Below, in pieces: positions 5,855-17,310 of a stretch of 64,000 nt of DNA. Numbering within the stretch: position 1 is the stretch's first letter; every line of letters starts with the position of its first letter. This DNA is from Desulfobacter postgatei 2ac9. Lineage in GTDB: Bacteria > Desulfobacterota > Desulfobacteria > Desulfobacterales > Desulfobacteraceae. Below the pieces are notes generated by a model. That model was given only the letters and a program-made list of their open reading frames with translations. It searched no databases and had not been told where the DNA came from. The translations under genes and the position numbers were made by a program. The stretch spans positions 398,049 through 462,048 of the forward strand of contig NZ_CM001488.1 of NCBI RefSeq assembly GCF_000233695.2, in the 5' to 3' direction.

Positions 5855-6886
5855 ATGGCCTGGTATCGGGCCAATTGCCGGCAGCTTCCCTGGCGCGGGG
5901 ATATCCCCGTGTACCGGGTATGGGTCTCCGAGGTGATGCTTCAGCAGACCCAGGTTAAAACCGTGATCCCCTATTATCACAAGTTCATGGCAACCTGGCC
6001 TGATCTTAAAGACCTTGCTGCCGCAGACCTTGAAACCGTGCTTAAGGCCTGGGAGGGCCTTGGGTATTATGCCAGAGCAAGAAACCTTCACAAGGCTGCC
6101 GGTATTGTGGTCCGTGATATGGGTGGCATTATTCCGGATGATTATAAGGGGTTTAAGAATCTTCCGGGTGTGGGGGATTATATTGCTTCGGCTGTGCTCT
6201 CCATTGCCGGGTCAAAGCCCCATGCCGTGGTGGACGGAAATGTCAAGCGGGTCCTGGCAAGGCTTTTGTGCGTTGACACGCCTGTAAATCACAGCGCTGC
6301 CCATAACGCATACAAGGCCATTGCCGCAAGTTTGTTGTATGAAAAAGATCCCGGCACATACAACCAGGCGATCATGGAGCTTGGCGCCCTGGTCTGTACC
6401 CCTAGACGTCCGGATTGCGACGCATGCCCCCTGGTCCGGGAATGTTGCGCCTGCGAACAGCAGGCAACAGCTCTTTTCCCCAGGCGCACGGAGAAAAAAA
6501 AGGTGCCCACGGTTCATATTGCCGCCGGCATTGTCAGGAAAAACGGAAAAGTCCTGATCACCCGAAGAAAACTGGACGGGCTTTTGGGCGGATTATGGGA
6601 ATTTCCCGGCGGCAAGGTGGAACCCAAAGAGTCCCCTGAACAGGCGTGCATCCGTGAGATCCGGGAAGAAACCGGTGTTGAGACCGGAAATCTGCAATTT
6701 TTAACCCGGGTTTTTCATGCATACACCCATTTTAAAATAGAAATGGATGTATTCTTCTGCGATTATCTCTCGGGCCGGGTGACTCTCAATGGTCCCATTG
6801 ACCATAAATGGGTCCGTGTAGACGAGCTTCACCGGTTTCCTTTCCCCCGGGCCAATCTTAAATTCATGGAATTGATCTGCGTTTGA
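5855..6886 (+). CDS. mutY: A/G-specific adenine glycosylase MutY fused to a Nudix domain
   Basis: Base-excision repair enzyme that removes adenine opposite 8-oxoguanine. Residues 1-220 hold the HhH-GPD glycosylase: EVMLQQTQV (catalytic Glu), LPGVGDYIASAVLSIA (helix-hairpin-helix), VVDGNVKRVLAR (catalytic Asp) and the [4Fe-4S] ligands CX6CX2CX5C ending ECCAC. Residues about 228-343 form a MutT-like domain with a complete Nudix box, GGKVEPKESPEQACIREIRE followed by ETG. In typical MutY this domain recognises 8-oxoG; a full Nudix box could also mean retained hydrolase activity. No alternative start codon exists between the upstream in-frame stop and the ATG at 5855. Confidence 0.95.
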   Translation: MAWYRANCRQLPWRGDIPVYRVWVSEVMLQQTQVKTVIPYYHKFMATWPDLKDLAAADLETVLKAWEGLGYYARARNLHKAAGIVVRDMGGIIPDDYKGFKNLPGVGDYIASAVLSIAGSKPHAVVDGNVKRVLARLLCVDTPVNHSAAHNAYKAIAASLLYEKDPGTYNQAIMELGALVCTPRRPDCDACPLVRECCACEQQATALFPRRTEKKKVPTVHIAAGIVRKNGKVLITRRKLDGLLGGLWEFPGGKVEPKESPEQACIREIREETGVETGNLQFLTRVFHAYTHFKIEMDVFFCDYLSGRVTLNGPIDHKWVRVDELHRFPFPRANLKFMELICV

Positions 6887-6943
6887 GCGGGATTACCTGC
6901 GTGAAATATTCATCCGCATGCTGCTGCATCCGGGCTAAAGCGT

Positions 6944-6972
6944 TTGACAATCGACTCCTGCCTAAATATAAG
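6944..6972 (+). promoter_or_regulatory. Sigma-70-type promoter of the accessory island
   Basis: TTGACA (6944-6949), a 17-base spacer and TATAAG (6967-6972), 69 bases before the next gene. A near-consensus promoter at the left border of the accessory island between mutY and the chemoreceptor gene. Confidence 0.6.
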
Positions 6973-7040
6973 AAAGACGAAGTCGACGGGTGGGTAAAAG
7001 CTGGCGGTGCGGCTGATCGCAATAAAAAGGATTCGGAAGA

Positions 7041-8471
7041 ATGATTACGGACTACCATGCAATCTACTACGCGCATGAATTGAGCCGGGTCGGCGGCACC
7101 GGTGTCGACCGCCTTGGCCGTGCGCTATTTGATGCATGTGTAGACCTGAATCCTCACCAGGATGAATACGGTTGGGAGGATGGCGAAGGGCTCTCACCGA
7201 CCCATCGCGAATTCCGCCAGGCGACCGGACTGGGCAAGACGCGCCTGATCTATGTCAAAGGAACCGACGATTCCAGGCGGCATCCGAAAATGAAGGCGCT
7301 GATCGGCGAGGCCAGTTCCGAACTGATCCGCCGCCGCGTCAACTCTCCCGAAGAATTGCTCTCCGCCGTCTATGCCAGTCTTGTCAAGCTTCTGGAAGAG
7401 CAGGAACTGATCCGCTTTACCCCCTTCGATGCCTCCTTCTGTCGCAACGCCACGCTGGAGGATCTGGATCTGGAAGGCATTTCTCGGTTTCTGTTGTTGG
7501 CCCGGCGTGGACGCAGCTTCCCCCTGCCCGAGGACACGCCGCCTGAGGATGTGCTGTCCCACCTGAATCTGCTCGACAAGGGGCGGCCTACTCATGCCGC
7601 CGTCCTGCTTTTTGGTAAAAAACCACAACGCTTTCTAATCACCTCCGAGGTCAGGTGCGCCCATTTTCACGGCTTCGAGGTGGAAAAGCCTATTCCCTCG
7701 TATCAGGTCTACAAGGGAACGCTCTTCGAACTTATTCAACAGGCCAAGGATTTTGTGCTCTCAAAAGTCGATCTCTGGACGGGTGACCGCTCCCAAGGCG
7801 TACAGGTGCCTACGGCTTACGAAATCCCGCAGGAGGTGGTGTCCGAGGCCATCGTCAACGCGATTTGCCACCGCGACTACACCAGCAACGCCAGCGTCCA
7901 GGTGATGCTGTTCAAGGACCGGCTGGAGATCTGGAATCCGGGTAGCATGCCGCCCGGCCTGACGCTGGAAAAGCTCAAACAGCCGCACCATTCCGTCCCG
8001 GCCAACCCGCTGATTGCCGAGCCGCTCTATCTGACCAAAAACATCGAACGCATGGGAACCGGCATCCGAGACATGATTCAGCGTTGCCGGCAAGCCGGGC
8101 TTCCGGAGCCGATCATCCATCTTGATGCGGGCGAGTGGGTGACAACTATCCGACGAAAACCTGGCGTCTTTCTAACATCGCCCCAGTCAGGGGCCCAGTC
8201 AGGGGCCCAGTCAGGGGCCCAGTCAGGGGCCCAGTCGATTGAAGTGTTGAAAATACTCGCTGTGGAGAATGAGATTTCAGCCAATATTTTAGCGGAAAAG
8301 CTTGGATTGCAGTCAAAAACGGGCGCATTCAAGCGCACCTTGCAGGATTTGCTGAAACAACAGCAAATTGAATATACGCTTCCGGACAAGCCCAGCAGCC
8401 GACTGCAGAAATACCGTCTTACCGCCAAAGGCAACGCCATTTTAAAGCAACTGAATCAGGAGAACCCATAA
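7041..8471 (+). CDS. Chimeric DUF4062 / RecG-like ATP-binding protein
   Basis: Residues 41-140 resemble the second half of a DUF4062 domain (YGWEDGEGLSPTHREF ... GKTRLIYVKG), and residues about 180-380 an AlbA_2/HATPase_c_4 putative ATP-binding region (EAIVNAICHRDY, PLIAEPLYLTKNIERMGTGI) often annotated as RecG-like transcriptional regulator. The C-terminus looks like a winged helix, preceded by a (QSGA)4 linker. Residues 1-40 (MITDYHA ... VDLNPHQ) do not fit this family; they resemble the first residues of SNF2/RapA-type helicases, and the first strand of DUF4062 is missing. I infer a deletion fusion near base 7161. Expression from the promoter at 6944 is plausible; function of the fusion is doubtful. 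The family call is from memory of homologues. Confidence 0.7.
   Translation: MITDYHAIYYAHELSRVGGTGVDRLGRALFDACVDLNPHQDEYGWEDGEGLSPTHREFRQATGLGKTRLIYVKGTDDSRRHPKMKALIGEASSELIRRRVNSPEELLSAVYASLVKLLEEQELIRFTPFDASFCRNATLEDLDLEGISRFLLLARRGRSFPLPEDTPPEDVLSHLNLLDKGRPTHAAVLLFGKKPQRFLITSEVRCAHFHGFEVEKPIPSYQVYKGTLFELIQQAKDFVLSKVDLWTGDRSQGVQVPTAYEIPQEVVSEAIVNAICHRDYTSNASVQVMLFKDRLEIWNPGSMPPGLTLEKLKQPHHSVPANPLIAEPLYLTKNIERMGTGIRDMIQRCRQAGLPEPIIHLDAGEWVTTIRRKPGVFLTSPQSGAQSGAQSGAQSGAQSIEVLKILAVENEISANILAEKLGLQSKTGAFKRTLQDLLKQQQIEYTLPDKPSSRLQKYRLTAKGNAILKQLNQENP
8184..8236 (+). repeat. 12-base tandem repeat coding for (QSGA)n
   Basis: Four perfect copies of CAGTCAGGGGCC plus a partial fifth copy, in frame in the preceding gene and coding for a Gln-Ser-Gly-Ala linker between the ATP-binding region and the C-terminal winged helix. 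Perfect identity suggests recent slippage. Each copy contains the palindrome GGGCCC at its junction. Confidence 0.9.
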
Positions 8472-8472
8472 C

Positions 8473-8802
8473 ATGCCAAGCGCCGAACAACTTCGCAGCC
8501 GCCTGTGGATGCTGGTTGGCGGAAAACAGTATGTCACCTTCATCGAGCCGCACGGTCTTTTGTACGAAGGCCCCGCCAGCGAGAAGGTTCTGTTCCACAA
8601 GCGGATCAAGGATGTCGAGCAACGGTTGAAAGACCCGACCGTGATCCTCAACAGCTTCATCCTTTCCTGGACGCGATACCCGCAACTGAAATGGGATAAC
8701 ACACAGGACGAGCTCGAGGATATGCACGTGCTGTTCATGACCAATGACCGGGACAGATATATTGACAAGCTGTTTGCCCGGCTGAGGGGGATGGTGAAAT
8801 GA
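8473..8802 (+). CDS. Small hypothetical protein in the accessory island
   Basis: A 109-residue soluble protein I do not recognise. It contains a strand-rich centre (KQYVTFIEPHGLLYEG) and an acidic-aromatic C-terminal half (YPQLKWDNTQDELEDMHVL ... RDRYIDKLFARL). It starts one base after the stop of the preceding gene. Its stop overlaps the ATG of the following AAA gene in an ATGA tetranucleotide (8799-8802), so it is translationally coupled on both sides and probably belonged to the same defence-type operon. No transmembrane segment or signal peptide. Confidence 0.6.
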   Translation: MPSAEQLRSRLWMLVGGKQYVTFIEPHGLLYEGPASEKVLFHKRIKDVEQRLKDPTVILNSFILSWTRYPQLKWDNTQDELEDMHVLFMTNDRDRYIDKLFARLRGMVK

Positions 8803-10797
8803 GCAGCGGAATTAAAAGAATTGATTCTATGAAAAATTTGGCAGTCTTTCAGGATTTTCATTAGGCATCCTCCGTGAAGGATAAAGACAAGAATGTCGCT
8901 GAATTTAAAAAAATTAATATATTATATGGTCGCAACTATTCTGGCAAAACAACCGTTTCACGAATATGGAGAGCTCTTGAGACCGGATTTCTTTCAAATA
9001 AATATACATCTGCTGAATTTCAGATGAGCTTTAAAGATGGAACTAATGTTACCCATAATTTCTTGGCTGGACATGGTCGAGTTGTTCGAGTTTTCAACGA
9101 AGATTTTGTTCGGGATAATCTGCGATTCATCTCGGATCCTGACGACAGCATCGAACCGTTCGCCATTCTTGGAGACGACAACAACAAAATCGAGAAGGAA
9201 ATAGAAGCGCTTGAAGGTGAGATTGGCTCAAAGCAGGAGGGAAAAGAGACAGGTTTATATGCCGAGAAGAAAAAAGCGATCTCAGATTTCGATGTCGTTA
9301 GAGGTAATCATAAAACAGCCACCGATGACCTAGATAAACAATTAGGCGACAAGGCGACCGACAGGAAAATCGGCATTAAGTATAACCCGGAGCGTTTTGG
9401 AGACCAAAATTACAATATTCAAAAACTTAAAACTGATATTGGAATAGTTCAAAACGTAAACTATCAACTGCCAACCGATGAGCATCTGGCACAATGTGAA
9501 AAATTGATCTCTGAAAAGACACTCCTGCAGGAAAGATGACATCCTCAACCCAAAGTCATTTGAAAAACCCGAAGATGACTCTGGCGACCTGGTTGCCGTA
9601 TGGGGTTCATATAATAAGATTCGGAACGAATCCGATGAGTTTTCAAACTCGTTAAGTACGGAGCATCCAAAAGCAAAAAAGGCGTTACGGCTCAAGGAAG
9701 TATCAGACTATCTCGTCACCATCCAATACCAAAATCAGTTTGCTGCCATTGAAGACCTCAAGGACAAGCTCAATAAAGCCGAGCAAGAAAAGAAACGCAT
9801 TGAAGCAGACCTCCGTCATAAACAAGAGCTGATTACAGCCAAAAAGCGCGAACTGAACGACGAGGAAAAGGGCGCAAGGAAGGTCAATGAATATTTGAAC
9901 AACTTCTTCGGGCACCAGTTTCTCACGATAGAGGCCAAGAAAGATAAAGTTGTTGGGGAGGAATCCAAGCGTATCAGGTTTGAAATCATTCGGGACGGCA
10001 AGAAGGCTTACCACCTGAGTGAAGGCGAATGCAGCTTGCTGGCATTTTGCTATTTTCTGGCAAAACTTGACGATATTGATACCAAGGATTCAAAGCCGAT
10101 CATCTGGATTGACGATCCGATCTCATCGCTCGATGGGAATCATATCTTTTTCGTTTACAGCTTGCTAAGCACTGAGGTTGTTTCCAGCGGAAGATTCGAA
10201 CAGTTGTTTGTATCAACACACAATCTTGATTTTTTAAAATATTTAAAGAGACTGAGCGGAAAATTTATCGACGTAGATGGCAAGAAGAAGGACTATCAAA
10301 AAGGCTATTTTATAATTACCCGGCAAGATAAAACATCCACCATCGGAGTAATGCCACATTATTTGAAAGAATACGTAACCGAATTCAATTATCTTTTCCA
10401 TCAAATACACAAGTGCGCAGCAATCGACTTTATTGACGACACCAACTACACAACTTTCTACAACTTCGGAAACAACGCTAGAAAGTTTTTCGAGGTTTAC
10501 CTCTATTACAAGTACCCAGACCAAGGTATGATGGAGGAAACTCTACGCCTTTTCTTCGGCGAGGAAAAGATACCTGCCGTTTTAACGGACAGAATCAATA
10601 ACGAATATTCGCATTTGTGTGGTGTTTTCGAGCGTGGGGCAACACCTATTGAAGTGCCAGAGATGCAGACCGCAGCGCGACAAATCATTGCAAGGCTGAA
10701 AGAAGATAGGGATCAGTATTTGGCTTTGCTCAATAGTGTTGGAGAGAACAAAGAACACCTCGAAGGAAAGGCTGTGACAACCGAGGGGGCTCCATGA
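8799..10797 (+). pseudogene. Broken RloC/PrrC-like AAA_13 anticodon-nuclease-type gene
   Basis: The intact ancestor would be a large ATPase of the AAA_13 type. Remaining parts are the start MSSGIKRIDSMKNLAVFQDF, Walker A GRNYSGKTT (8928-8954), ABC-type signature LSEGECSL (about 10015), Walker B PIIWIDDPISSLD (about 10096-10134) and a C-terminal region with an Arg-x3-Glu pair (from 10480) and a His 44 residues later (10612), compatible with the Arg-Glu-His triad of PrrC/RloC tRNA nucleases. Two lesions are visible. An in-frame TAG at codon 22 (8862) stands where relatives appear to have Trp. Near 9535-9540 the frame shifts, and a central coiled-coil stretch that in RloC-like proteins carries a zinc-hook CxxC seems deleted. 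A GTG at 8874 could restart translation of the N-terminal part only. The nuclease assignment is inferred; a non-nuclease AAA_13 protein is possible. Confidence 0.7.
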
Positions 10798-12050
10798 AAA
10801 TCCTTCATACATCCGACTGGCACATCGGCCGCACTCTTTACGGCAGAAAACGCTACGAGGAATTCGAGGCCTTTCTGACCTGGCTGGCTGAAACGATTCA
10901 GCAAAATGAAATTGATGCCCTTCTGGTGGCGGGTGATGTCTTTGACACCAGCGCTCCAAGCAATCGCGCCCAGGAGCTCTATTACCGGTTCCTGTGCCAG
11001 GTGGCCGCCTCATCCTGTCGGCATGTTGTCGTTGTCGCGGGCAACCACGATTCGCCCTCCTTTCTGAATGCTCCCAGGGAGCTGCTCAAAGCCCTGGATG
11101 TCCACGTGGTCGGTAGCAGCACGGAATCCGCGGAAGACGAAGTGCTGGTACTCCGTAATGAGCAGGACGCTCCGGAATTGATTGTCTGTGCCGTGCCCTA
11201 TCTCCGAGACAGGGATATCCGCGTGGCGGAAGCGGGGGAGAGCGTCGAGGAGAAGGAGCGGAAATTGATTGACGGCATCCGCACCCATTACGCCGCCGTC
11301 GCTGCCTTGGCTGAACAGAAGCGCGAGGAACTCGGGGCCGATATTCCCATCATTGGCACGGGACATCTGTTCACCGCTGGCGGACAAACCGTCGATGGTG
11401 ATGGCGTGCGCGAACTCTATGTGGGCTCCCTGGCCCATGTGACAGCCGGGATTTTTCCTGCCTGCTTCAACTATCTGGCGCTGGGGCACCTCCACGTCCC
11501 GCAAAAGGTGAACGGCTCCGAAATCATACGGTACAGCGGCTCTCCATTGCCCATGGGGTTTGGAGAGGCAAAACAGCAGAAGAGCGTTTGCCTGGTTGCC
11601 TTTGATCAGATAGAGGGTCACAGCACAGCTGCATCCGTACAACTGATCGACGTGCCGGTGTTTCAAAGGCTTGAGCGCGTCAAGGGAGACTGGGACGGCA
11701 TCTCATCCCGCATCCTTGAATTATCGGCAACGGACGACCCAAATCGATCAGGGGCCTGGCTTGAAGTCATTTATGACGGCATTGAGGTCATTGGCGACCT
11801 GCGTGAGCGCCTGGAGGCTGCAATTTCAGGCACCCGGATGCAAATCCTCCGGATAAAGAACAACCGCATCATCGACCGCGTGCTGGGACAAATCCATGCA
11901 GAGGAAACACTCGACGACCTGAATGTGAACGACGTGTTCGAACGATGCCTTGCCGTTCATGAGGTGCCTGAAGAGCAGCGGCCGGAGCTGCTTCGGGCCT
12001 ACCAGGAAACGGTCTCGTCTCTCTATGAAGACGATGTGCAGGCCGAATAG
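10794..12050 (+). CDS. sbcD: Exonuclease subunit SbcD (Mre11-like)
   Basis: Calcineurin-like metallophosphoesterase that acts with the SbcC ATPase to trim DNA hairpins and ends. All phosphoesterase motifs are present in order: HTSDWHIGRTL, LLVAGDVFDT, VVAGNHDSP, GTGHLF and LGHLHVPQ, followed by RYSGSPLPMGFGE. At 418 residues it is a usual length and looks intact. Its ATG overlaps the TGA of the broken AAA gene (ATGA), and sbcC starts 11 bases after its stop. Because the partner SbcC is truncated, the complex is probably non-functional unless another SbcC exists elsewhere in the genome. Confidence 0.95.
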   Translation: MKILHTSDWHIGRTLYGRKRYEEFEAFLTWLAETIQQNEIDALLVAGDVFDTSAPSNRAQELYYRFLCQVAASSCRHVVVVAGNHDSPSFLNAPRELLKALDVHVVGSSTESAEDEVLVLRNEQDAPELIVCAVPYLRDRDIRVAEAGESVEEKERKLIDGIRTHYAAVAALAEQKREELGADIPIIGTGHLFTAGGQTVDGDGVRELYVGSLAHVTAGIFPACFNYLALGHLHVPQKVNGSEIIRYSGSPLPMGFGEAKQQKSVCLVAFDQIEGHSTAASVQLIDVPVFQRLERVKGDWDGISSRILELSATDDPNRSGAWLEVIYDGIEVIGDLRERLEAAISGTRMQILRIKNNRIIDRVLGQIHAEETLDDLNVNDVFERCLAVHEVPEEQRPELLRAYQETVSSLYEDDVQAE

Positions 12051-12061
12051 AGAGGCTGTCG

Positions 12062-14848
12062 ATGAGAATACTGCAGGTACGCTTCAAGAATCTGAACTCA
12101 CTGGTCGGCGAATGGCAAATCGACCTGATGCACCCGGCCTTCGCGTCTGACGGCATCTTCGCCATCACCGGCCCCACCGGCGCGGGGAAGACCACGATCC
12201 TTGATGCTATTTGCCTCTCCCTTTATGGGCGGACGCCTCGCCTGAACAAGGTCACCAAGAGCGGAAACGAAATCATGTCCCGCCAGACCGGGGAATGCTT
12301 TGCCGAGGTGACCTTCGAAACTCAGTCTGGGCGTTACCGCTGTCACTGGAGCCAACACCGGGCACGCAAGAAGCCGAATGGCGAACTCCAGGCCCCGAAA
12401 CACGAAATTGCCAATGCCGATTCCGGGGAGATCTTTGAATCCAAGATCAGAGGTGTAGCCGACCAGATCGAGTCAGCTACCGGCATGGACTTTGATCGTT
12501 TCACCCGATCCATGTTGCTGGCCCAGGGCGGCTTCGCCGCGTTTCTTCAGGCGGCACCGGATGATCGGGCTCCGATCCTGGAGCAGATAACGGGCACAGA
12601 GATCTACAGCCGGATATCCATCCGTGTCCATGAGCGCCGGCGCGGGGAGCGGGAAAAATTGAACCAGCTCCAGGCTGAAACAGCAGGTATCGTGATTCTT
12701 GAGCCGGAGCAGGAACAAGAGATTGGGCAGGCACTCGAGACAAAGCAGAAGGAAGAGACAGACCTTGCCGCCAAATCCGCTGAGACCGGGAAGGCCATTG
12801 CCTGGCTCACCACCATCGACGGGCTGAAGACGGAAATCATCAATCTGGCCGATGAAGCGAGCAAGCTGCAGGGCGATATCGAGGCCTTCAAACCGGATCG
12901 TGAAAAGCTGGGCCGGGCTTTGAGTGCCGCCTCACTGGACGGCGCATACGCAACGCTCACCGCCATCCGCAAACAGCAGGCGCATGACAGAGCTGGCTTG
13001 AAAGCGGAGGAAGAGGCTCTTCCCGGACTGGAATCCTTTGCCAGGCAAGAGGCCGAGGCACTGAAATCGGCTGAGCAACAAACCGCTCGGACTAAAGAAG
13101 ATCTGAAATCGGCAGCGCCTGCATTGCAGAAGGTTCGCTTCCTTGATCAGAAACTTGCCGATCAGAAAAAGGCTGTTTCCGAAGGAGATGCGGTCTCTGA
13201 GAGGGATGCGGCAAAGATTGATGCAGACAAAAAAGCCTTGATCGAAGCGCAGAAAAAACGATCCAGAGCTCAGGAGACGCTGGCGCTTGTGGACCGCTAC
13301 ATCAAGGCGCATGCACAGGATGAATGGCTGATCAGCGGTCTGGCCGGCGTTGAAGAACAGTTCGGCGGCCTGATCTCCAAGCAAAAAGAAATCGTCCAAA
13401 AAGAGGCGGATCAAGAAGCGTCCACGACAGCTCGGGAACTGGCCACAAAGTCACTCGAACACTGTCAGAAGCAATCCGGCATTCGGAAGCAGGAGCTGGA
13501 GGACGCCTCAAAACAGCTTCAGGAGGGCAAGGATGGTTTGAGGCAGTTGCTGGGAGACCGCTTGTTGCGGGAATACCGCACCGAGAAGGACACCCTGCTG
13601 CGTGAAATGGCCTTCCTGACCAAAATTGCGGAGCTTGAAGATCACCGGGCAAAACTGGAAGACGGCAAGCCCTGTCCTCTTTGCGGCGCAACCGAACACC
13701 CCTTTGCGGAAGGGAATGTACCCATCCCCGATGAAACCGAACAGAAGATCGACGCCCTGACCAGGCTGATCAGCAAAGCCGAGGACCAGGAATCCGCCAT
13801 CAAGCAACGCGAAGAAGCTGAAACTCTGGCCCGTAAAAATCTGACGAAGGCTGAAAAGCTGGAGTCAGCAGCGGCTAATGATAAGAAGGCCGCTGAGAAC
13901 GCCCTGGCCGAGGTGAAGGACGGCCTGGTGAAACTCCGTGCCGATTTTGCCGAACGCATGCAGGCCGTCTCTACCAAACTCCTGCCCCTTGGTATTGCGG
14001 AGATCCCTGAAACGGACATTTCATCACTGATCCAATCCCTCAAGGCGCGGCTGAAGGCGTGGCAGACCCAGGTCAAGAAAAAGGCGGACATCGAGAAACA
14101 GATTGCCGACATCGACAGTGAGGTGAATCGCCTGGATGCGGTTATTGAAACCCAAAGCACCGCCCTGGCCGAAAAGCTGGAGCGTCTGGATACCTTGAAA
14201 AAGGAACTCGCCGCCGGAAGTAAAGCGCGTAACGCACTATACGGCGACAAGAATCCCGACGATGAGGAGCGCCGTTTAAACAAGGCGGTTTCTGATGCCG
14301 AAGCTGCCGAAAAACAGGTCAGAGAACGGCACAATGAACTTCAGCAAAAATCGAATACCGCAAAGGCCCATGTCGAATCTCTGAAGAAACGTATCGACCT
14401 GCGAGAGCCGGAACGGAGAGGTCTTGAAACTGAATTCTCCGCAGCGCTCGCGCCCGTTGGTTTTTCAGATGAAGAACAGTTTTTGGCGGCCGTATTGCCC
14501 TCTGAATATCGGGCGGTGCTGACGGCCAGGGCCAAGGATCTGGATGAGCGTCAAACAGATCTCAAAGCCAGGCAGAAGGATCGGGAAATGCGCTTGACCA
14601 CCGAGATGGCCCGAAAGATCACCGACAAGTCGCTGGAAGAGCTCGAGCCCCAATTCAAGGAACACCAGGAGGTCCTGAAACAACTGCGCGACATCATTGC
14701 CGGTCTCAAGCACAAGTTAAGTGAGAATATCGCTGCAAAAGAGCGGATAAAGGAAAAGCAGACAGCTATCGAGGCCCAGAAGCTGGCTAACTTGAAGATG
14801 AATCAGCTGGCGCAGCCATTCAGGGTAAACGTATTTAAATTGTATTGA
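12062..14848 (+). pseudogene. sbcC: SbcC exonuclease ATPase, lacking its C-terminal ATPase lobe
   Basis: Rad50-like partner of SbcD. The N-terminal lobe is intact: FAITGPTGAGKTTILDAI (Walker A, residues about 36-53) and the Q-loop region RSMLLAQGGFAAFL. Two long coiled-coil arms flank a zinc hook, GKPCPLCGATEHPF, at about residues 535-548. The frame ends at residue 928 within the returning coil, in an unrelated-looking tail ([15 protein letters not shown]). The ABC signature (LSGGE), Walker B and D-loop of the C-terminal lobe, normally about 150-200 further residues, are absent and are not found downstream, where the chemoreceptor promoter begins. It is therefore a 3' deletion at the right edge of the island, and ATP hydrolysis should be impossible. 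Confidence 0.85.
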
Positions 14849-14874
14849 CTCCAAAAACTTTCATGAGGTATAAA
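14845..14874 (+). promoter_or_regulatory. Putative promoter of the chemoreceptor gene
   Basis: TTGACT (14845-14850), an 18-base spacer and TATAAA (14869-14874), 85 bases before the chemoreceptor start. It overlaps the stop codon of the truncated sbcC, so the island boundary abuts this promoter. No sigma-28 motif was seen. Confidence 0.5.
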
Positions 14875-14958
14875 TTATACCTTTATGCAAAATTTTGTGG
14901 TGATCAAGACCGTCCTATCGAAATCAAAAACAAGGAAAACAAAAATTGGAGGGGACCA

Positions 14959-17106
14959 ATGGGAATTAAATTAAAAATAGGAATGCTGGTGGCCTTGTCA
15001 ATTTTAACAATGTTGATTATTGGTGGAGGCGCTGCCTGGGTTATATCATCAGTGGCTGATAGTTCAGAGAAGATTGTGACTGCTTTTGGAAAAGTGAATG
15101 CCCTCATTTCCCAATTACAAAACTCCGGTAAAAACGTTTCTCTTACTTTAAACGCAGACAGGGATGCTTATCAGGCATATGTCGCCCAATTAGAGGCAAA
15201 AGGGACACATGATGCCGAGGCTATAAACAAAGCAGATGCAAGTAATCTGGAAAATATCCAGCAGGTTCATGACCGGATCAAGAGCGCTTCAGCAACCTTT
15301 AGCCAAGAAATGCTTAACACCTATAATGAATTCCAAAAATTGTTTCCCGAATGGCAGGCATTAAGTCGGGAAACGATTGCTCTGTGCCATGAATACAGTG
15401 AAACCTATGGTACCCGGAAGGAAATTATAGGAACTGCCGAAAAATCATTTTCGTCAATGCGGGCATTGATGAATGAGATCACAGAAATGTTTGAAGCTAA
15501 AATAGCCGCTTCCTCCGAGAATAGTCTGAGATACGCAACAGCTGTTAATTTTGTGGTCAATGCAGATCGTGATGCCTATCAGGCTATGGAGGCAAGAATA
15601 CGGGCAACGTTTGCGCAGGATTTGAAAATCCTTGCTTCTTATGACTCTGATAATGCTGAAAACATTGAACAGGTTGGCCAACGGATGGGGAAAGCTTCTG
15701 CTGAATATGATCAAGCAATGATGGATAAATATACTGAGTTTAAAGGGTTTTATGAAACCTGGAAAACTGCCAGTCGTGAAGCCATAAAGCTTAGCCGTAC
15801 TTTAAAGGAGAACCGCGACAAACTGAACAAAATTGAAATCGCTTCTTTGGATAAGTTCAGTGAAACCCGTGATGTGATCGACGTCATAGGGACTCAAAGT
15901 GATGAGCTGTCGCAAAGTTATATTTCGTTAGCACAGGAAGAGGCTGAAAAGGTTAATCGGCTGGCGATAGAATCTAAAGACACTGTTTCGTCAATGATGA
16001 AGGCATCTACCATATTGTTTGTTGCCGTTTTATTAGTTCTGATAGCTGTATCTGTTGTTGTAGTCAAGGCAATCGTAAAACCAATAAATAATACAGCAGG
16101 CGGCCTTAAAGATATTGCAGAAGGAGAAGGTGATTTGACGATCCGCCTGCCAGTCTCAACCAAGGATGAAGTCGGTCTGTTATCAGAAAGTTTTAATAAA
16201 TTTATTGAAAGGCTGCACCAAATGATAACAGATATAAAACAGGATGTAGAAACCCTTTCATCATCATCAACAGAGATGGCCTCAATTGCTGATGATATGT
16301 CAAACAGCGCAGATCAAACATCCCAGCGTGCAAATGCTGTTGCCGCAGCGGCAGAGGAAATGAACTCTAACATGAGTTCCGTGGCAGCGGCAATGGAAGA
16401 ATCCAGTATTAACCTGAATACCGTTGCCAGTGCAGCAGAAGAGATGAACTCAACCATAAACGAAATAGCCGGGAGTGCAGAAAAAGCACGAAGCATAACC
16501 TTGAATGCCGTGTCTAAAGCAGATGAGTCCACAACCATCATAAACGAATTAAGCAACTCTGCCAACGCCATTGGTAAAGTGGTGGAGACGATTACCGATA
16601 TATCCGAACAGGTGAATCTTCTCTCTTTAAATGCAACCATTGAAGCGGCAAGAGCAGGAGAGGCAGGAAAAGGATTCGCAGTTGTTGCAAGTGAGATTAA
16701 AGATCTTGCAAAGCAGACATCCGAGGCGTCTTTGGATATCAAAAAAAGGATTGAAGATATACAGCAAAGTTCTGCAATCTCTCTGAGCAGCATTGAAGAA
16801 ATTTCAGCGGTCATTGCTGATGTAAACGATATCGTTTCTACAATTGCTACGGCGGTCGAAGAACAGTCTTCAGCGACACGTGAAATTGCCCAGAATATTG
16901 CTCAAGCCTCCAGCGGTATTGAAGAAGTTAACTCAAATGTGAATCAGAGTTCAGCGGTCTCAGCAGAAATTGCTCAGGATATTACGGGAGTGAATGACTC
17001 ATCAGGAGAAATCGCTGAAAGAAGCGGCCAGGTCAAACTTAGTGCTGAAGAACTTTCCAAGCTTGCTGCCAGACTCGATGAAATGGTTGGCCGATTTAAA
17101 ATATAG
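14959..17106 (+). CDS. Methyl-accepting chemotaxis protein with duplicated helical sensor
   Basis: Transmembrane chemoreceptor that signals to CheA/CheW. The start at 14959 is supported by GGAGGGG six bases upstream; the open frame begins earlier without a ribosome site. The 715-residue protein has one N-terminal helix, a large periplasmic helical region, a second membrane helix ([18 protein letters not shown]), a HAMP domain and an MA signalling domain with the hairpin tip [26 protein letters not shown]. The periplasmic region contains two related modules, each opening with NADRDAYQA and containing NxENIxQVxxR and a WxxxSRE-like segment, as in helical bimodular (HBM) sensors, which bind small organic acids. 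The ligand is not predictable. No C-terminal CheR-tethering pentapeptide is present. Confidence 0.9.
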
Positions 17107-17310
17107 ATTTGAATCATGATCGCCTCATCCAGAAAGATTTACCCAACTCAAGCAGATGAAAATCGGTTTTGCTTTCCACCTGTTTTTTTTTAAATCCGTA
17201 CAGGCGCTATCATGATGAAATCGGCAACAATTCATGGTAAGGTGGAGCCTTTTTACAGCGCAGTAATACTTTGAAAGCTATAAATTATAAGTAGAAAGGT
17301 TTTGAACCCC

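Follow-up and report, generated by a model that had tools for sequence, protein, structure and literature searches.

An apparent type III restriction-modification, RloC, and SbcCD operon remnant behind mutY of Desulfobacter postgatei, and the recurrence of RloC-type genes beside sbcCD

RESULTS

The window analyzed here is a 64,000-nucleotide stretch of the one-contig, 3.97-Mb genome of Desulfobacter postgatei 2ac9 (G000:C1:398049-462048). We examined the block of genes that follows mutY at positions 6887 to 14850, mainly by comparison with a relative that has the same site (L020) and with another relative, G240; all window features lie on the plus strand unless stated otherwise. These comparisons indicate that the block is the remnant of an operon encoding a helix-turn-helix (HTH) protein, an SNF2 helicase, a DUF4062/HATPase protein, a type III methyltransferase (Mod), a type III restriction subunit (Res), an RloC-type ATPase, SbcD, and SbcC. 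An earlier sequence-only reading had proposed an ancestral operon that ran from the helicase and the DUF4062 gene through a small protein and an RloC-like gene to sbcD and sbcC. The helicase, DUF4062, RloC-type, sbcD, and sbcC genes are present and codirectional, but what had been taken for a small protein is a scar left by Mod and Res, and the type III restriction-modification (R-M) core had been missed; type III R-M-RloC-SbcCD remnant is the better name for the island. The genes had also been described as coupled by ATGA overlaps. Such overlaps occur at 7041, 8799, and 10794, but the boundaries at 8471/8473 and 12050/12062 are not of this kind.

The helicase-DUF4062 fusion. The open reading frame (ORF) at 7041 to 8471 bears out the fusion proposed at position 7161. 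It opens with the 5′-most 40 codons of a DrmD-like SNF2 helicase gene (7041 to 7160; 962 amino acids in L020 and 965 from the matching start in G240), which are joined in frame at junction J1 to a DUF4062/HATPase_c_4/Fic-like_C protein without its first ~79 residues (7161 to 8471). In L020 (contig JAABPW010000054.1), whose left flank is as in the window (mutY C terminus 94% identical, 155-bp spacer equal), mutY is followed by an intact SNF2 helicase gene, a separate and intact DUF4062/HATPase_c_4 gene (511 amino acids), and a type III Mod gene of which only the start precedes the contig end. The rest of this operon was sought in the L020 genome, where only 32 bp matched. L020 is labeled a Verrucomicrobia metagenome-assembled genome; since the mutY it carries comes from a close relative of the window host, the label is probably a binning error.

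Relative to L020, ~2,990 bases (L020 572 to 3561) between helicase codon 40 and DUF4062 codon 80 are gone from the window, and the fused protein lacks most of its DUF4062 domain. Zero bases are exactly shared at the join, though blastn extends the left match six bases further. Divergence from L020 shifts at J1 from 8 differences in 280 bp on the left to 10.6% on the right (P = 8e-6), and synonymous divergence (dS) from L020 is 0.065 at the mutY end and 0.41 in the DUF4062 part; the join may therefore have arisen by recombination of two alleles and not by simple deletion. Just upstream, comparison with G240 and L020 identified the 3′ remainder of an HTH_17 (excisionase-like) gene (6970 to 7044): G240 bases 2395 to 2623, including the first 141 bp of the HTH gene, are missing in the window, and the spacing in L020 is the same as the window's. 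Within the fusion ORF, 4 to 5 tandem copies of a 12-bp unit at 8180 to 8240 encode QSGA repeats. By eye, the DUF4062 protein also lies among apparent R-M genes in five other genomes (L022 to L026).

The Mod-Res scar. The 109-residue ORF at 8473 to 8802 was rejected as a standalone small protein. Its first 11 codons (8473 to 8505) match the Mod start of G240 and, with the DNA before them, L020, and the last ~98 codons of Res (8503 to 8802; 95% nucleotide identity to G240) follow at junction J2, where 2 bp are shared. Residues 11 to 109 match, at 96%, the end of a 1,153-codon Res frame in G240 whose product fits REase_III (562 bits). The G240 relatives of the other fused fragments fit MTase_III (828 bits) and DrmD (679 bits), and the gene order there is HTH, SNF2, Mod, Fic, Res, PHP. 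Judged by G240 gene lengths, at least 6 kb was lost when Mod and Res became one short frame; G240 has both genes, and the window has neither in complete form. Because the ORF is a deletion scar, asking whether a 109-residue protein always precedes the AAA_13 gene, as had been suggested, is meaningless.

The RloC-type gene. An ATGA overlap connects the Res remnant with a Pfam AAA_13 gene (8799 to 10797) that matches the PDC-S06 model PDLC04887 and is a pseudogene of the RloC-type family. Both lesions noted previously in this gene hold up. A stop codon at 8862 to 8864 replaces a Trp kept in all 11 relatives of alignment A1, and an out-of-frame internal deletion (junction at 9520 to 9532, frame change at 9525 to 9529) has removed ~150 codons, including the CxxC zinc hook. 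Walker A, LSEGE, and Walker B motifs, CxxC (C318 and C321), and a Ser-preceded R-x3-E-x39-H triad (R730, E734, and H774) are common to 11 of 11 A1 relatives. We assigned these proteins to the RloC type because their CxxC and triad match the RloC signature R-X3-E-X36-52-H, often with Ser before the His, plus a CXXC zinc hook, as given in the published portions considered here (PMC2610378), and we infer that PDC-S06 is RloC. The window copy retains the triad and has lost the hook, and Walker A, hook, and triad are not in one ORF. An RloC hook mutant is described as a more active nuclease (PMC2610378); it is speculation that hook loss in the window gene forced the other lesions.

The sbcD and sbcC genes. 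The sbcD gene (10794 to 12050) is full length; its 418-amino-acid product is 91% identical to the SbcD of the G076 cassette described below and scores above the cutoff of the NCBIfam subfamily model TIGR00619 (217 versus 77.65 bits). As proposed, sbcC (12062 to 14820) is truncated, with 928 codons versus 1083 in G312, 1091 in G076, and 1096 in L239. DNA homology to G076 and L239 ends at 14781, although one SbcC protein alignment (G305) continues weakly for some nine residues past this point. The product lacks the C-terminal part that G076 and L239 have, does not contain both ATPase halves, and falls below the TIGR00618 cutoff (204 versus 478.5 bits). Its stop codon is supplied by the terminus of a DDE_Tnp_1 transposase element (14821 to 14876), of which a copy in G347 carries a gene for a 377-amino-acid DDE_Tnp_1 transposase (L098:1483-2616). 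We take this element to belong to the ISAs1 family. Parts of the element, including the terminus (14821 to 14888), are found at three other places in the host genome and in same-genus genomes; for some copies (L094 to L096), the stretch compared contains no transposase gene. The 39 bp between the end of sbcC homology and the terminus (14782 to 14820) match no identified source.

A second, complete sbcCD pair lies behind type III Mod and Res in the same genome (G000:C1, about 1,075,750 to 1,080,790, computed from L085). Upstream of it in L085 (G000:C1:1070000-1089999) are DUF4391, Mod, RhuM-like, and Res genes and a 1.8-kb gap between Res and sbcD. This gap was considered as the site of an RloC remnant, as G312 has RloC there, and the idea was rejected: only ~74 bp at the gap start match G312, with no RloC body.

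RloC-type genes adjoin sbcCD in seven other loci. The sequence-only reading had called the pairing of an RloC-type ATPase with SbcCD notable, and the pairing recurs: an RloC/PDC-S06 gene adjoins sbcCD in G312, G402, L239, G201, G076, G060, and a Chitinibacter plasmid. That reading would have been undone had no other genome kept these genes together, which is not the case: the same-genus locus G312:C21 has, in this order, an SNF2 helicase, DUF4391, Mod (722 bits), a RhuM-like gene, Res (1143 bits), RloC (835 amino acids), SbcD, and SbcC (1083 amino acids), but without the DUF4062 gene; the best models for its Mod and Res differ from those of G240. G201 has RloC, SbcD, and SbcC (1230 amino acids) with no R-M gene recognized nearby. 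The viral contig L239/L267 carries the BREX (bacteriophage exclusion) genes BrxC (1993 bits), PglX (1312), PglZ (1166), and BrxL (1236), together with SduA (516; between PglX and PglZ), followed by PDC-S06 (1107), SbcD, SbcC, and a 386-amino-acid protein. The one-contig genome G076 has the same last four genes, with no R-M or BREX gene recognized; the PDC-S06 proteins of G076 and L239 share 91% identity. The 3.4-kb contig G060 has PDC-S06, SbcD, and the start of SbcC. In G402, type I restriction and specificity genes precede a split RloC-type gene (PDLC04890), SbcD, and SbcC, and the plasmid of Chitinibacter bivalviorum carries the end of SbcD, SbcC, and then a broken RloC.

RloC-type genes from three PDC-S06 clades adjoin sbcCD, with type III R-M, type I R-M, or BREX genes nearby or standing alone: PDLC04887 in the window, G312, and G201 (and, by similarity, Chitinibacter), PDLC04893 in L239, G076, and G060, and PDLC04890 in G402. 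Counting the window, the order is RloC, sbcD, sbcC in 7 of 8 loci, and genes overlap or nearly so in the window, G312, G060, G076, and L239. Three of these loci have a broken RloC (the window, the Chitinibacter plasmid, and G402). In six SbcCD-linked proteins checked besides the window's, the triad is spaced as in RloC (X37 to X50; a loose pattern); the triad His has no preceding Ser in G076, L239, and G060. One CxxC each was found in G312, G201, G076, and L239; the C-terminal fragments from G060 and G402 contain no such motif. The gene that splits the G402 RloC-type gene (L268:8233-8670) is small, transposase-like by eye, and on the other strand; sbcD and sbcC after it are open. The 386-amino-acid protein encoded after sbcC (L239:13267-14427; also L256, in the G076 cassette) matches a pAgo (prokaryotic Argonaute)-associated nuclease model weakly (30.5 bits); this side of sbcC has been lost from the window.

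Frequency of the pairing. Searches of the window host's phylum outside G000 gave RloC/PDC-S06 matches in 13 of 240 genomes (E up to 1e-3), 10 of 296 (E up to 1e-3), and 11 of 293 (E up to 1e-40), making 33 distinct genomes (G162 occurred twice); the weakest matches may be other ATPases. Flanking sequence was in some cases limited to 1.5 kb, and contigs sometimes ended close to the gene. sbcD lay beside RloC/PDC-S06 in 5 of these 33 genomes (G312, G402, G201, G076, and G060), for which the binomial tail is 7e-9 at an assumed chance of 0.2% and 1.9e-5 at 1%, uncorrected for relatedness. As a control, sbcCD was found in 0 of 15 BLAST-annotated type III Res neighborhoods (of 16 genomes other than the host's with a type III Res match; G240 was inspected by eye only), as a raw count.

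Module exchange. Over 10794 to 14781, the window is 89% identical to G076 DNA, and the match starts at the sbcD start codon. SbcD and SbcC are 91 and 87% identical to those of G076, and the RloC genes in front belong to different clades. In an RloC tree, the Chitinibacter copy stands closest to the window gene (98/96), and at least three state changes are required to account for the linked RloCs; in an SbcD tree, the window protein groups with G201 (100/98), apart from the SbcDs of its family. Both trees leave out G076, L239, G060, and G402.

Selection and decay. Pairwise ratios of nonsynonymous to synonymous divergence (dN/dS) were 0.079 for the DUF4062 part (versus L020), 0.10 for the Res tail (versus G240), 0.10 for SbcD, and 0.25 for SbcC (both versus G076). 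Changes in sbcC and sbcD were polarized with L239, assumed to be a true outgroup, and those in DUF4062 with L021 and L022. For sbcC, the window branch had 69 synonymous and 87 nonsynonymous changes versus 81 and 53 on the G076 branch (P = 0.007), which suggests that the window sbcC is under relaxed constraint. The corresponding counts were 29 and 19 versus 47 and 13 for sbcD (P = 0.057) and 21 and 13 versus 21 and 7 (L020 branch) for DUF4062 (P = 0.29; 6 and 8 versus 4 and 6 with four outgroups).

The insertion site. In six same-genus genomes (G312, G329, G324, G303, G334, and G351, out of 11), mutY is followed by a gene that we call ycaO-like by eye, with 20 to 300 bases between; the window's ycaO-like gene is at 17302. 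The whole inserted block is absent from all six sites compared. Homology to these empty sites stops at the mutY stop codon (mutY, 5855 to 6886) and resumes, in G351, G329, and G324, at 17195 to 17205 (a border without strand), giving an insertion of ~10.3 kb from 6887 to about 17199. The insertion includes a methyl-accepting chemotaxis gene (14965 to 17106) that none of the six sites has in the interval from mutY to the ycaO-like gene and whose product is 86% identical to a chemotaxis protein encoded elsewhere in G354. At the left edge, a 44-bp segment (6885 to 6928) matches, at 88.6% identity, a portion of an amidotransferase-like gene (named by eye; L267:8755-8798) upstream of the BREX genes in the viral contig, which suggests that this edge is a scrap of another defense or mobile region.

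DISCUSSION

We read the island behind mutY as a mosaic, decayed defense operon, with a pairing of RloC and sbcCD that extends across defense settings and an intact form that would combine DNA end processing with a tRNA-cleaving alarm; we give this reading, whose last part is the most conjectural, a probability of about 0.72. The steps of decay discernible from the comparisons are the helicase-DUF4062 and Mod-Res joins, the zinc-hook deletion in RloC, and the transposon end that, with loss of the rest, cut sbcC. The three decay events first proposed (the fusion, the AAA_13 lesions, and the sbcC truncation) are all real, but the lesions number at least six. They had been considered independent; they are not clearly independent deletions, because the join at 7161 coincides with a divergence break that looks like recombination. 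The window copy can no longer do the job of an intact operon; of its frames, those of sbcD and the DUF4062 fusion have the best, though unproved, chance of still giving a useful protein.

Several observations weigh against parts of this reading. The dN/dS values of sbcD and the DUF4062 fusion are still near 0.10 and 0.08, and complete loss of function is unproved. The pairing is uncommon: sbcCD was not found beside the RloC-type gene in 28 of the 33 genomes of the host's phylum (some with 1.5-kb flanks or contig ends), in any of 10 matches (E up to 1e-50) from the 398 genomes sampled in a second phylum, that of a Nevskiales genome, in 72 of 73 viral loci (1 with the pair), or in 4 of 5 plasmid neighborhoods examined out of 176 records (1 with the pair), and only 1 of 12 sbcCD loci of the host's family outside the window has RloC. 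SbcCD-linked RloCs do not form one clade, and the Chitinibacter plasmid has the genes in reverse order. The nuclease domains of RloC and PrrC have been assigned to HEPN (PMC3710099). An AlphaFold model of the C-terminal part of RloC, which is helical, is weak (predicted local distance difference test, 68; predicted template modeling score, 0.45); its best PDB matches are Rad50-type ATPases, and no HEPN entry was recognized among the best 50 of 319 fold matches. Finally, the mechanism is conjectured from sequence, and the passages of published work considered here describe RloC as activated by breaks without a partner, so that SbcCD need not belong to RloC control (PMC3874168).

Chance could account for the neighborhoods if defense islands collect genes and a mobile sbcCD sometimes lands beside RloC with no working relation. 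At the second locus of the host genome, sbcCD does lie beside type III R-M without RloC, it lies beside such remnants in G334, and most RloC genes are without sbcCD and the linked ones are not monophyletic. We nevertheless consider chance unlikely, though the most serious of the rival accounts, given three PDC-S06 clades in four settings, the shared order in seven of the eight loci, overlapping or nearly overlapping genes in five, and a frequency of 5 of 33 genomes that is far above the assumed expectation of 0.2 to 1%, and 0 of 15 for type III Res neighborhoods annotated in like manner. A further view is that the island is reduced rather than dead, its two in-frame fusions and intact sbcD having been selected as a smaller system, such as a DUF4062/HATPase regulator with SbcD. 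That both large fusions are in frame and that dN/dS is low in the DUF4062 part, Res tail, and SbcD would fit, but chance alone would put both joins in frame one time in nine, the low ratios stem mostly from the time before the damage, and the polarized counts lean toward relaxation. With most of the DUF4062 domain missing and a second, complete sbcCD in the genome, we judge a selected small system distinctly improbable. The AAA_13 gene does consist of two long parts, each well conserved, as would be expected were its lesions programmed (readthrough or frameshift) or sequencing errors; we give this almost no credence, since some 450 bases, encoding ~150 codons with the invariant CxxC, are gone at the frame change, which neither a programmed event nor a base-calling error explains, and a stop stands in place of an invariant Trp.

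Within the decayed-operon reading, an intact operon would likely work as follows. Restriction or BREX would make or expose DNA ends, SbcCD would trim or degrade them, and RloC would stay silent while ends are being cleared. Were restriction or SbcCD overwhelmed or blocked, ends would persist, and RloC would cleave tRNA anticodons and stop translation. Alternatively, RloC may guard SbcCD as PrrC guards EcoprrI. We tentatively propose, at somewhat less than even odds, that the pair is a transferable immune module of two parts, appended to restriction and BREX operons, in which RloC would monitor the ends or SbcCD itself, as PrrC does EcoprrI, and one SbcCD lineage would serve RloCs of different clades. 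Characterized RloC is reported to be switched on by linear DNA and breaks, and one RloC was active in R-M-deficient mutants (PMC3874168).

The front of the island resembles type III R-M with a DrmD-like SNF2 helicase: the G240 relatives fit MTase_III, REase_III, and DrmD, and the window keeps 11 and ~98 codons of Mod and Res. With respect to DISARM (defense island system associated with restriction-modification), the helicase has DrmD as its best model and a weaker DrmA match to the same protein (153 bits); neither DrmA nor DrmB was the best model for the other five L018 proteins scanned, which do not cover every ORF. Unlike an ordinary SbcCD, the window pair is a second genome copy in a defense operon, and the nearest relatives found are in RloC-type cassettes. 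PrrC with EcoprrI offers a parallel, in that a restriction operon there includes an anticodon nuclease as its backup defense (PMC3710099, PMC2610378); the settings here differ in being type III or type I R-M, BREX, or none, plus SbcCD, and silencing of this RloC by R-M is not evidenced.

The closest likeness is to RloC of Geobacillus kaustophilus and Acinetobacter baylyi, a Rad50-like ABC (ATP-binding cassette) ATPase split by a CxxC coiled coil and ending in an R-x3-E-x36-52-H triad, with a published size of 658 to 897 amino acids; type I or III R-M loci contain a few of its members (PMC2610378). A literature search, with subscription papers, bioRxiv, and supplements mostly outside it, found no paper describing an RloC-SbcCD pairing, and the gene set recurring across defense systems appears to be a new combination of known parts. 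In the portions of the RloC literature covered here, RloC is a lone, break-triggered tRNase with a rare link to restriction, and SbcC and SbcD figure only as comparisons; the relatives described here lie directly before sbcD and sbcC, and the window copy is a hookless pseudogene. The RloC-sbcD-sbcC set would offer RloC a concrete partner candidate, a Rad50-Mre11-type nuclease acting on the same DNA ends. Intact cassettes are available in G076, G201, and G312, and the window illustrates how such an operon disintegrates. If the proposal is true, it would link DNA end processing to abortive infection.

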